Made by a program: the position numbers and the translations under genes. The notes under the pieces are model-generated. The model saw only the letters and a list, made by a program, of their open reading frames with translations, was not told where the DNA came from and ran no database searches. Below are positions 2,021-9,720 of a stretch of DNA of 64,000 nt, one piece after another. The stretch is from the NCBI GenBank assembly GCA_036488875.1, contig DASXGW010000014.1:1-64000 (forward strand). Reading direction: 5' to 3'. This stretch comes from Candidatus Baltobacteraceae bacterium. Its GTDB lineage: Bacteria > Vulcanimicrobiota > Vulcanimicrobiia > Vulcanimicrobiales > Vulcanimicrobiaceae. Position 1 is the first letter of the stretch. Every line of letters starts with the position of its first letter.

Positions 2021-3385
2021 TTACCGCTTGCGCCCCGTCAAGAACTTTTCGAAAATCCCTAACTCAATGATCCGATCCCCGATGGCCGTAGGCGAGTCTT
2101 CGAGGCGAATGTCCGTTAGGTATCCCTTTACTAGTTCAATCCATTCCTGACGCAGGGGCGCGGTCCACTTAAACGCATCATTAGGCCACGGACGTGCTTT
2201 GACGAGCCGGTCCATTAGAGGGCCCTGCTTTTTATATAGAACGGTGCTCACGACTCCACCCGTAGCAAAACCGCTTATGAGAAACTCGCGAACGACCTTC
2301 GGAACCCAATCGCTTGCTTTCGAAAGAAGCCAAACAAGCAAGTGCATATCCTCGAAGTTATAGGACGGCGCCCAAGAATCGCCTCGCGTAACGAAGCTGG
2401 AAACACACTCAGCGTTATAGTTACCGAACGTCGCGTGACGAAGGGCAATGTGTTCTTCGCAGAGAGGCCGGTCCCCATCAACCGTCAACGCCGCACCTCC
2501 GCCGATGCCGCCCTCCAGGCTGCGCTTTGCTGTAGCAACAGAAACATCTAGCATCTCGTCGAACGTATCTGAAAACTCTCCACTAAACTCGCGAAGCGTT
2601 AGGAAGGGCGAATAGTTTGCCAAAATGTGCGGAAAATCCAAGCACGTTTCTCGCAACCCGGGCATGCCTTTAATGAATGCGTGGACTTTTTCGGGGTGCG
2701 TCATTTGGCAAATGAGGTGCTCCTCCGCATACTCGGTCCACCTGAGTTGCATTGCTGCCCAGGCGAGTCGCACGCCGCGAAGCTCTCCGACTGTTCTTTC
2801 GTGGGGAAGCGGGAAACTCCACGAGCCCCAAGTGCTTTGTATCGGAACACGGACGCCGTGAAACGGCACCCTATTAGACGCTTCGACAACGTCGAGCCAC
2901 CATTCGTCAGAAATAACAGGCGGTTGGAATCCCCAACTCAGGAGTTCGTCGCGTGCGACTATCAGTGGGCTTCCGTCCGGGTGAATCTTTCGGAGCAACT
3001 GATTACAGACAGCCTCTAATCCCTGGTCGGAACGCACGGCTACAATATCAGCAAGCGGCGGGGATATGGCGACGATCTCACTCCTCGTGATATTGTGCCA
3101 AACCGGCAACACAAGACGCGCATCCTCGTTCACCTCGCGTGCGACTAACCCGTCTAACTCTCGTTGCGGCCAGTTCTTGGCAAAGAACGCTGGACTAAGA
3201 ATGACAATACCAAACCGCGAGTTCGCAAGCCCCTTGTCTATTGCGCGCCGCAAGCCGTCGCCAACACCGAGCGAAAACTCGTCATACCACACCTCTACGC
3301 GGTTGTCGCGTAGCATTTTCGCTAGCGGGCGAACGAGACTATCCTTATCCTCGCTCGCGTGGCAAATGAAGGCATCGTAGAGCAC
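2021..3385 (-). CDS. TIR-domain protein with large unknown C-terminal domain
   Basis: Residues 1-135 form a TIR domain: strand A motif MLYDAFICHASEDKD, box-2-like region EVWYDEFSLGVGDGLRRAID, strand D IVILSPAFF, and W72-x3-E76-L (NWPQREL), which places the catalytic glutamate of NAD-cleaving TIR enzymes. Residues 150-454 match nothing I recognise and could be a sensor or effector-binding region. Bacterial TIR proteins often work in anti-phage defence by depleting NAD+ or making signal nucleotides; that role here is inferred from family and island location. The next gene upstream on this strand, at 3451, is 65 bases away. Confidence 0.85.
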   Translation of the reverse strand: MLYDAFICHASEDKDSLVRPLAKMLRDNRVEVWYDEFSLGVGDGLRRAIDKGLANSRFGIVILSPAFFAKNWPQRELDGLVAREVNEDARLVLPVWHNITRSEIVAISPPLADIVAVRSDQGLEAVCNQLLRKIHPDGSPLIVARDELLSWGFQPPVISDEWWLDVVEASNRVPFHGVRVPIQSTWGSWSFPLPHERTVGELRGVRLAWAAMQLRWTEYAEEHLICQMTHPEKVHAFIKGMPGLRETCLDFPHILANYSPFLTLREFSGEFSDTFDEMLDVSVATAKRSLEGGIGGGAALTVDGDRPLCEEHIALRHATFGNYNAECVSSFVTRGDSWAPSYNFEDMHLLVWLLSKASDWVPKVVREFLISGFATGGVVSTVLYKKQGPLMDRLVKARPWPNDAFKWTAPLRQEWIELVKGYLTDIRLEDSPTAIGDRIIELGIFEKFLTGRKR

Positions 3386-7438: not shown

Positions 7439-7757
7439 GGCGCCAGTATAGGCCGCTAGGGTCCTGGGAGTCTAGGGTCGACCGATTCCGGGCTGTGTAG
7501 CGCTTCCATCATTCCGAGGGTCCTGAGTATCGACCGCGGCACGTTCCATCGAACCTGCGCCACGTATAGGCCACGGGAGGGGTGCTAACAGAGGCAGCGA
7601 TCTAGGACGGGGGATATATTCCAGACAGGTTCCGGAAAGGTTCGCTTCGGTCGCCGCTACCATCTATCCGCATCGCTCTCCAAAAATCGAATCCCCGAAA
7701 GCGGTTGTAGAAGTGCGATGGTTGTACGAATCCGGCGCACTCCGGTATCATTGGCAT
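7439..7757. other. Non-coding stretch between small regulator and TIR gene
   Basis: No convincing gene is present on either strand. It contains repeated agggtcct-type words (around 7458-7475 and 7519-7530) and a second copy of the word ggttccggaaag (7629-7640; first copy 7249-7260). It probably holds the divergent promoters of the flanking genes. Confidence 0.4.
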
Positions 7758-8492
7758 ATGTCTAGATGCACTGCACCCGTATACGGTCATCGCACGTCGA
7801 GCGGGAGAGCGAACTGCCCTGAGTGCGGTAGTCGCTACGGCGGCTATGGCGGCGGCTACCGTTCGTATTCGCCCCCGACCTATTACTCGGGGGGAAGTAG
7901 CGGGGGCGGTCGGAGTGGTGGCGGCTCAAGCAGCAGCGGTATGGACGCAAGGCCAAGATGGTCGCCAGCCGGTTCGACCGTGGTGTACACGCCTGCAGAG
8001 GTGTCAGCGCTCACACCGATCCGGGAGAGCTTGGAGAGGCGACTGCCTCAGCCCGACCGTCGCGACTTCTTTCTCTGCCACGCGTGGGACGACCGAAGGG
8101 GGCCAGCCAAGGAACTGAACGATCTGCTCGTGTCACTTGAAGTCTCGGTGTGGTTCAGCGAGAACGATATCGGCCTCGGCGCACCGTTCCTTCGCGAAAT
8201 AGACAAGGGTCTGGCGAAGTCACGAGGTGGAATCGTGTTGGTGACTCCTGCGCTAATCGAGCGCCTTCGAGCAGAAGTATCGAGCATCGCGGACAAAGAG
8301 CTATCTGCATTACTAGAGCGCGAGCAGCTGGTCCCCGTTGTACACAACACCACCTATGACGCTCTGCGCGATGTTAGCCCTCTGCTCGCTTCGCGACACG
8401 GCCTGAGCACTGCAGAAAATACAATGGCTGAGGTCGCTGCAAAGCTCGCGGAGTTGGCCGCCATCGCGCCGGACGGGCAGCGTTTATATTAG
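7758..8492 (+). CDS. TIR-domain protein with N-terminal zinc knuckle and Gly/Ser linker
   Basis: I chose the ATG at 7758 (Met16 of the longer frame from 7713) because the protein then opens with MSRCTAPVYGHRTSSG and Cys4, His11, Cys20 and Cys23, a plausible zinc knuckle. Residues 28-62 are Gly/Ser/Tyr-rich and look like a flexible linker. Residues 100-244 form a TIR domain: DFFLCHAWDD, VWFSENDIGLG, IVLVTPALI and Glu181 in ADKELSAL at the catalytic position. It is the second TIR gene of the island. NAD hydrolase/defence function is inferred from the family. Confidence 0.8.
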   Translation: MSRCTAPVYGHRTSSGRANCPECGSRYGGYGGGYRSYSPPTYYSGGSSGGGRSGGGSSSSGMDARPRWSPAGSTVVYTPAEVSALTPIRESLERRLPQPDRRDFFLCHAWDDRRGPAKELNDLLVSLEVSVWFSENDIGLGAPFLREIDKGLAKSRGGIVLVTPALIERLRAEVSSIADKELSALLEREQLVPVVHNTTYDALRDVSPLLASRHGLSTAENTMAEVAAKLAELAAIAPDGQRLY

Positions 8493-8844: not shown

Positions 8845-9258
8845 ATGGGATTCAAAGAACCCAAGAACGGCAAACCTCGAACGGTTACCATGCCTGCGAC
8901 GCTTGCCGCAATCTTGAAGCAACACCGAGAGCAACAGGACGGAGAGCGCGACCTACTCGGCAAAGCATACAAAGACGACAACCTCGTCTTTGCCAAGCCG
9001 AACGGGTCGATAGTAAACCCGCGGGCGTTCGGAGACCGGGTGATTGAACTCGCCCAAAGGGCCAACGTCAAACCGATAACGGCGCACTGCCTACGCGACA
9101 CGCACGCGAGCCTACTGGCAAGCAAAGGCGTACCGCTCGAAGTGGTTTCCAAGCGCCTCGGTCATGCGGATATCCGCACCACGGCGGAGCGCTATCTACA
9201 CGTCTACCGAGAGCGGGACGAGGAGGCGGCGAGGAAGTTCGACACCCTCACTGCCTAA
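8845..9258 (+). pseudogene. Tyrosine integrase, C-terminal catalytic remnant
   Basis: The 137 residues hold the second half of a phage-type integrase catalytic domain: the HxxR box in ITAHCLRDTHASLL, the GH of KRLGHADIRTT, and the nucleophile Tyr in AERYLHVY. The N-terminal arm-binding and core-binding domains and the first catalytic Arg are missing, and the frame is closed by TAG at 8782. It ends 95 bases from the tRNA-Leu 3' end, the classic integrase/attachment layout. It is probably inactive; another integrase would be needed to move the island. Confidence 0.8.
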
Positions 9259-9340: not shown

Positions 9341-9376
9341 GGGCAATACTATTTGGGATGGCCGGGACTCGAACCC
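9341..9376 (-). repeat. attR: 36-base repeat forming the tRNA-Leu 3' end
   Basis: Identical to 1021-1056. Bases 9354-9376 are the 3' end of the working tRNA-Leu gene, so integration rebuilt the tRNA. The 13 bases left of the tRNA belong to the island side of the core. Confidence 0.85.
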
Positions 9377-9656
9377 GGACGCCCTTTCGGGCTGCAGATT
9401 TTCGCACCACTATAGCTTTCGCTACCGGCAGAACCGTTTGTGGTCCGGACTGTGCCTTGACCGTATGAGATTACAATCTCACTTAGGCCGCGCCCGTCCA
9501 GTCTCTACACCTTTCCTCGCTTGAGGACTTGGCTCGGCGTCGTCACGTCGTGCGACAGAGAGTTCGCCGAATTTGAGCGCATCCCGTAGGTGATTTCTCC
9601 GCCTACGGCTCAACGTGGGTCAAGTCTGCTGTGTCTGCCTATTCCACCACCATCCC
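9354..9656 (-). tRNA. tRNA-Leu(UAA), split by a group I intron
   Basis: Exon 1 (9656-9622) begins GGGATGG and carries the D-arm, the anticodon stem GCAGA and loop CTT. Exon 2 (9402-9354) begins AAAA, then TCTGC, a long variable arm (GCCC-GAAA-GGGC), T-arm CCGGG-TTCGAGT-CCCGG and acceptor CCATCCC plus discriminator A. Joining the exons gives a 7-base anticodon loop CTTAAAA with anticodon TAA, and all stems pair. The long variable arm and discriminator A fit leucine. CCA is not encoded. Between the exons lie 219 bases with group I intron structure. Confidence 0.93.
9403..9621 (-). ncRNA. Group I intron (IC3-like) in tRNA-Leu(UAA)
   Basis: The intron interrupts the anticodon loop after U34 and ends in G. 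Visible elements are a guide GAG that can pair with exon-end CUU through a terminal G-U (P1), a 7-pair P2 (9602-9608/9584-9590), a 7-pair P4 (9571-9565/9539-9533), P6-type hairpin TCCTC-AAGC-GAGGA (9527-9514), R-like GTGTAGAGACTGGAC (about 9509-9495), P8 hairpin (9481-9466), and S-like CAAGGCACAGTCCGGACC (about 9458-9441). No ORF or homing endonuclease is inside. Insertion site and core match cyanobacterial/plastid tRNA-Leu introns. Confidence 0.9.
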
Positions 9657-9667
9657 ATGCGCCTGCC

Positions 9668-9720
9668 CTTCGTCCTTCGACTTCGCTCGCCTCCGGCTCG
9701 CTACGCTCAGGATGACAAAG
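9668..9720 (-). repeat. Dispersed intergenic repeat, copy 1
   Basis: About 50 bases that on the minus strand begin CTTTGTCATCCTGAGCGTAG and end near GAAGTCGAAGGACG. A diverged copy lies at 37145-37193. It fills the gap between the tRNA-Leu 5' end and the stop of the DUF2630 gene. Similar short elements are scattered in many uncultured genomes; function unknown. Confidence 0.75.

Follow-up and report, generated by a model that had tools for sequence, protein, structure and literature searches.

A tRNA-Leu(UAA) group I intron in Eremiobacterota and its relatives in phage tRNA genes

The split tRNA-Leu(UAA) gene and its surroundings

The stretch of DNA analysed here – 64,000 nucleotides, referred to as the window – contains a tRNA-Leu(taa) gene on the minus strand at positions 9656-9354, which ARAGORN recognizes in intron mode as interrupted by an intron of 219 nt. 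The 5′ exon (9622-9656) has the 3′ end ..GCAGACTT, its last base being U34; the intron (9403-9621) follows directly and ends in G; and the 3′ exon (9354-9402) runs from A35 and A36 to the discriminator A. When joined, the exons form a perfect and regular cloverleaf of 84 nt with a long variable arm. The original prediction for this DNA had described exons joining into a perfect tRNA-Leu with anticodon TAA, split after U34 by an intron with a terminal G, and its coordinates are exact; only the strand was missing from it. Endonuclease genes are absent from the intron, which has no space for one because the longest open stretch in the frames that were read is 46 codons.

The tRNA gene lies at one end of an 8.3-kb island flanked by exact direct repeats of 36 bp, identified by a repeat search at positions 1021-1056 and 9341-9376. 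The second copy covers the tRNA 3′ end and lies outside the intron. A tyrosine recombinase gene (8845-9258; PF00589) within the island adjoins the tRNA-Leu gene and, together with the flanking repeats, marks the split gene as the attachment site. A degenerate third copy of the repeat (112-147) and a 128-bp repeat (153-280 and 1062-1189) suggest that there is a second, adjacent island. Two TIR-domain proteins are encoded in the 8.3-kb island (2021-3385, minus strand; 7713-8492, plus strand), and because the second is matched along its length by the model for ThsB of Thoeris (E 3.3e-107), the island probably carries an anti-phage defence.

The host has another group I intron in its 23S rRNA gene (L002 1501-1791, genome position G000:C2:353253-353543; 28.5 bits, E 3.7e-5). 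It is apparently inserted after ..UUUGGCACCU, a site that we take to be near E. coli position 2500.

Structure, covariation and the need for splicing

The Rfam model RF00028 aligns with the window intron over 253 of 253 positions with a score of 34.3 bits (E 6.8e-7 genome-wide, 4.7e-7 for the window alone), and our own model, R1, scores 151.6 bits. The Infernal search with Rfam models that the original prediction had proposed thus returns a significant match, yet one under the RF00028 gathering score of 50 bits, which is a curated threshold and not a biological criterion. Because of this shortfall the intron is overlooked by default annotation: ARAGORN with default settings and Rfam at the gathering threshold make no call at the window tRNA-Leu locus. 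The Leu introns of two relatives (G005 and G012) are similarly low-scoring, with 34.9 and 30.4 bits.

We assigned helices P1, P2, P3-P8 and P9 by hand, including the P1, P2, P4, P6- and P8-type pairings that had been predicted. P1 is formed by exon CUU and intron GAG, with U34 opposite G as a U.G pair at the 5′ splice site. P2 is CCGTAGG/CCTACGG, P3 is GCGCTC/GGGCGC, P4 is TCGGC/GCCGA and P7 is GACTG/CAGTC; P5 is short, P6 has a variable stem, P8 can be assigned, and P9 includes ACCAC/GTGGT, with the intron ending ..GGTGCG. In the window copy, J4/5 and J5/4 are separated by only about 20 nt and the P5abc extension is absent; introns of the IC3 group are described as having no P5a-d (PMC11835236).

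The catalytic core, P3-P8 (9442-9585), is matched by R1 and is the part covered – and supported – by the covariation test. In an alignment (A1) of 19 relatives that includes phage copies and copies from other tRNAs, the named core structure with its P3/P7 pseudoknot is paired in 94.3% of cells, compared with 35-42% when partners are slid by one to three columns, a control that is somewhat biased in favour of the structure because this was taken from the window copy. Compensatory cells number 78 against 25.8 in shuffles, the base helices P3, P4, P6, P7 and P8 are paired in 98.7-100% of cells, and the last pair of P7 is found in all four Watson-Crick forms (G-C, A-U, C-G and U-A). The fold energy has a z value of -3.06. 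At the level of sequence and predicted structure, the element is confirmed to be a true tRNA-Leu(UAA) group I intron.

Neither an uninterrupted GACTTAAAATC anticodon loop nor a second full match to tRNA-Leu(UAA) was found in the host assembly (3.7 Mb, 97.6% complete). With no intact tRNA-Leu(UAA) gene having a canonical loop in the assembly, splicing is presumably needed, although at this completeness a second tRNA gene may have been overlooked. TTA codons are rare but in use, in rpoB, accD, hrcA and other genes, and this use, together with the status of the split gene as the sole one, implies rather than proves that it is expressed and spliced. In the proposed pathway, the CUU of the 5′ exon would pair with the intron GAG in the pre-tRNA, forming P1 with its U.G at the splice site; an external guanosine held in P7 would attack after U34; and the freed U34 would then attack after the terminal G, joining the exons to give the mature tRNA. 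With no other recognisable tRNA-Leu(UAA) gene present, the host would tolerate the intron solely through the intron's own removal.

Distribution and inheritance in the Eremiobacterota

A search with a 22-base core word – a specific pattern, which contains a T and gave no contig titled cyanobacterial – matched 33 named contigs, many of them the same contigs as relatives of the window genome. A 16S rRNA gene of the host was not found. Titles of 30 of the 33 name Eremiobacterota or Vulcanimicrobiota, placing the host in the Eremiobacterota and bearing out the prediction that it is not cyanobacterial. Among these 33 contigs, and with so specific a pattern, there was no tRNA-Leu intron from another phylum. 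Two contigs with other titles (L106, 'Proteobacteria', and L093, 'unidentified') were considered as other phyla and rejected; they match class members G046 and G042 and so do not widen the host range.

Within the host's family, about 44 of 99 genomes have an intron-bearing tRNA-Leu(UAA) gene split at the same site, and many others have contiguous exons. The intron is also present at this site in seven of 14 genomes of another order of the class (f3), and neither intron nor exon matches were found in another family belonging to the order of the host (f2), which is represented by four genomes. In the genomes examined from other classes of the phylum there was no match to the tRNA-Leu intron, and group I introns occur there in different tRNAs, those for Tyr and Asn among them.

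In close relatives, exons at empty sites are nearly identical to those bearing introns, and in several pairs the flanks also align (e.g. G018/G107, and G108/G104 of one genus), so these genomes differ by exactly the intron at a single locus. Of the 49 genomes in an RpoB tree, 14 are empty; they are dispersed over the tree, mostly as isolated tips and mostly surrounded by intron-bearing forms, and there are 13 changes. All 35 eremiobacterial Leu introns fall in one clade (99/95) in the core tree, in which subclades recur by genus (for example g25 and g9). Intron and RpoB distances are correlated inside the family (rho 0.30, p 0.0005) and weakly so with both orders together (rho 0.13, p 0.07), perhaps reflecting saturated variable stems or some transfer. 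This weak correlation, together with intron neighbours that cross genera (G011 with G104, G012 with G107, and G017 with the g9 set), makes some transfer within the class possible. No endonuclease gene was found in the eremiobacterial Leu copies. We conclude from these sequence comparisons that the intron is probably old in the class, mainly vertically inherited and repeatedly lost.

A dispersed repeat resembling CCTGAGC..GTCGAAGGG is present in the variable loops of four introns (L039, L043, L064 and L067) and beside the window tRNA, at about 9665-9717. Such repeats seem to insert into peripheral intron loops; the repeats in P6b of Nostoc trnL offer a parallel.

Phage relatives and the origin of the intron

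A blastn search of a phage collection identified one record, the 595-kb phage LR756511, in which an intron interrupts tRNA-Leu(UAA) at the same position and has an HNH open reading frame of 154 residues in its P6 region (PF01844 and PHROG HNH families). IMG/VR was then scanned for the core, for relatives of the HNH protein and for the 3′ junction. There are 39 phage records – LR756511 and a few near-duplicates included – in which tRNA-Leu(UAA) is split after U34, with anticodon-stem pairing checked. A relative of the HNH protein is encoded inside the intron in nine of the 39 and directly downstream in 14, a share that is inflated because part of the set was found through this protein. An independent scan for the 3′ junction identified at least 55 contigs with a T-arm, core and matching 5′ exon among the 120 matches listed. 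Phage hallmark genes lie near the phage introns, including rIIA, rIIB, and genes for a UvsX-like recombinase and a virion protein; plasmids gave no match. That the same intron type occupies the same site in dozens of phage contigs is unexpected, and overturns the assumption in the original prediction that introns at this position belong to the cyanobacterial and plastid group. A 2014 review places every phage intron known at that time in a protein-coding gene (PMC3984707), and among the open papers searched we found no later report of group I introns in phage tRNA genes.

A few related copies lie after U34 of tRNA-Lys(UUU), as would be expected if the insertion site is determined by the pairing of P1 with CUU. 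One of these (L104, 538-861) is on a contig that is Gemmatimonadetes by title only; its RpoB is far from the eremiobacterial set. Related introns (L115, L116, L117 and L120) also interrupt tRNA-Leu, Gln-like and Ala-like tRNA genes on a phage contig of 315 kb and, apparently, protein genes on two small viral contigs. Copies in tRNA-Arg(CCU) on two viral contigs (L163 and L256) form a clade of their own.

By site and core, the window intron appears to belong with the trnL(UAA) introns, and it would function as they do. It shares with the cyanobacterial and plastid trnL introns (IC3) the same tRNA, the insertion after U34, the CUU:GAG pairing of P1, a short P5 and the same core words. It differs from them in host phylum, in grouping with phage introns in the trees, and in its core identity of about 58-61% to a provisional Anabaena sequence, as well as in having P3 as GCGC/GCGC where the cyanobacterial intron has GCUC/GAGC. 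According to Paquin et al. (1997), cited in PMC4476775, cyanobacteria gained the trnL intron once and lost it on several occasions. LR756511 and the IMG/VR phage introns share the tRNA, site and core of the window intron, and differ in that many have an HNH gene inside or adjoining them whereas the window copy has none.

Other tRNA introns are more distant. The tRNA-Arg(CCU) and tRNA-Ile(CAU) introns of Proteobacteria are small group I introns of the anticodon loop with no open reading frame; the window intron resembles them in these respects, and they interrupt other tRNAs. The tRNA-fMet intron with a PD-(D/E)XK endonuclease (the I-Ssp6803I type of Synechocystis) is likewise a group I intron of the anticodon loop, but it occupies a different tRNA and site and falls in a separate clade from the Leu introns. 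Genes of tRNA-fMet type with group I introns, forming their own clade, are present in other Eremiobacterota (L014, L016, L017, L018 and L026), and several of the eremiobacterial tRNA-fMet introns contain a Synechocystis-like PD-(D/E)XK open reading frame (PDDEXK_5, PF11645, E 1.3e-46).

The core tree is based on 137 columns, its deep branches are uncertain, and the model to which its alignment was fitted derives mostly from eremiobacterial introns; in this tree LR756511 is the sister of the eremiobacterial clade, which is placed among the phage introns. A tree of Leu introns alone also groups the eremiobacterial clade with LR756511 (support 96/89). Over the core, the eremiobacterial introns are on average 76% identical to that of LR756511, 66% to those of other phages and 61% to Anabaena, the only cyanobacterial sequence compared, which is a provisional copy of 249 nt that agrees with the published intron in length. 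The tree with cyanobacterial introns proposed in the original prediction was therefore realized in part, with this one provisional sequence; the best tree groups the eremiobacterial introns with phages, and a constrained clade of eremiobacterial introns and Anabaena is not rejected (p-AU 0.33). The position of the eremiobacterial lineage among phage tRNA introns indicates an early transfer from phages, and with a single provisional Anabaena sequence and its clade at this p-AU a phage source is the best reading rather than a proven one. The choice offered originally, between an ancient intron and a transfer, is best answered by both: an intron old and mainly vertical in one class, with indications of an early phage transfer.

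Our overall reading, which we hold at a probability of about 80%, is that the tRNA-Leu(UAA) gene of the window is interrupted by a self-splicing group I intron, most likely derived from phages, inherited mostly vertically and repeatedly lost. The lineage would have entered the ancestor of the eremiobacterial class most likely from phages, where HNH endonucleases encoded in or near the same intron in tRNA genes could drive homing; the window intron, with no endonuclease gene, would now persist mostly by vertical inheritance accompanied by repeated precise loss. The sequence comparisons are best read as pointing to a tRNA intron that was carried by phages, was formerly mobile and became domesticated in the ancestor of the class.

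Several alternatives bear on parts of this account. An ordinary cyanobacterial intron on a contaminating contig would account for the resemblance in site and core to the cyanobacterial trnL intron, but we reject it as having a negligible chance of being correct: the contig is 133 kb long, the genome groups with 99 family members of which many have the same tRNA exons, the named relatives are Eremiobacterota, and core identity of the window intron to the Anabaena sequence is only about 58%. Scarcely more credible is a pseudo-tRNA or a degenerate intron that has lost splicing. The RF00028 score under the gathering threshold could be taken as a sign of decay, but low scores are common to the Leu introns of relatives, the spliced cloverleaf is perfect, the helices show compensatory changes, and TTA codons are used in a genome in which no other intact tRNA-Leu(UAA) gene was found.

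The history of the intron leaves more room for disagreement. If the patchy presence and the 13 changes on the RpoB tree reflected gain rather than loss, separate genera would have acquired the intron recently or repeatedly, from phages or from each other, and both the neighbours that cross genera and the mobile appearance of the phage relatives would fit. We think this unlikely, given that all 35 eremiobacterial copies form one clade with recurring genus-level subclades, that most empty tips are surrounded by intron-bearing forms, and that no endonuclease gene was found in these copies. Somewhat more doubtful still is an intron present in the common ancestor of Eremiobacterota and Cyanobacteria, lost elsewhere, and taken by phages from their hosts. 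The shared tRNA and site, core words recognisably the same as in the Anabaena intron, the age of the intron in the class and the p-AU of the constrained clade are all compatible with it. Against it stand the higher core identities to LR756511 and to other phages than to Anabaena, other classes of the phylum having introns in other tRNAs and no match to that of tRNA-Leu, and the lack of any other phylum with a tRNA-Leu intron among the 33 named contigs recovered with the specific core word. Returning to a phage origin, one may go further and suggest, tentatively, that the trnL(UAA) intron originated as a phage element, with an HNH-bearing pool that seeded chromosomes more than once and gave rise to the eremiobacterial and perhaps the cyanobacterial and plastid lineage, in which the endonucleases then disappeared and the intron settled into stable inheritance. 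Introns of such a pool would move among phage tRNA genes sharing the CUU(34) loop, those of Leu-UAA, Lys-UUU and others.

The trnL(UAA) intron is a classic case for an ancient intron passed from cyanobacteria to plastids, and a barcode in wide use is based on it. An old copy with repeated losses in a second class of bacteria would provide an independent lineage in which to measure loss. In genomes such as this one, the sole tRNA-Leu(UAA) gene is overlooked by default tRNA and Rfam annotation. Phage introns occur beyond protein genes, and those in phage tRNAs, with their HNH endonucleases, may represent the mobile source that was previously missing.
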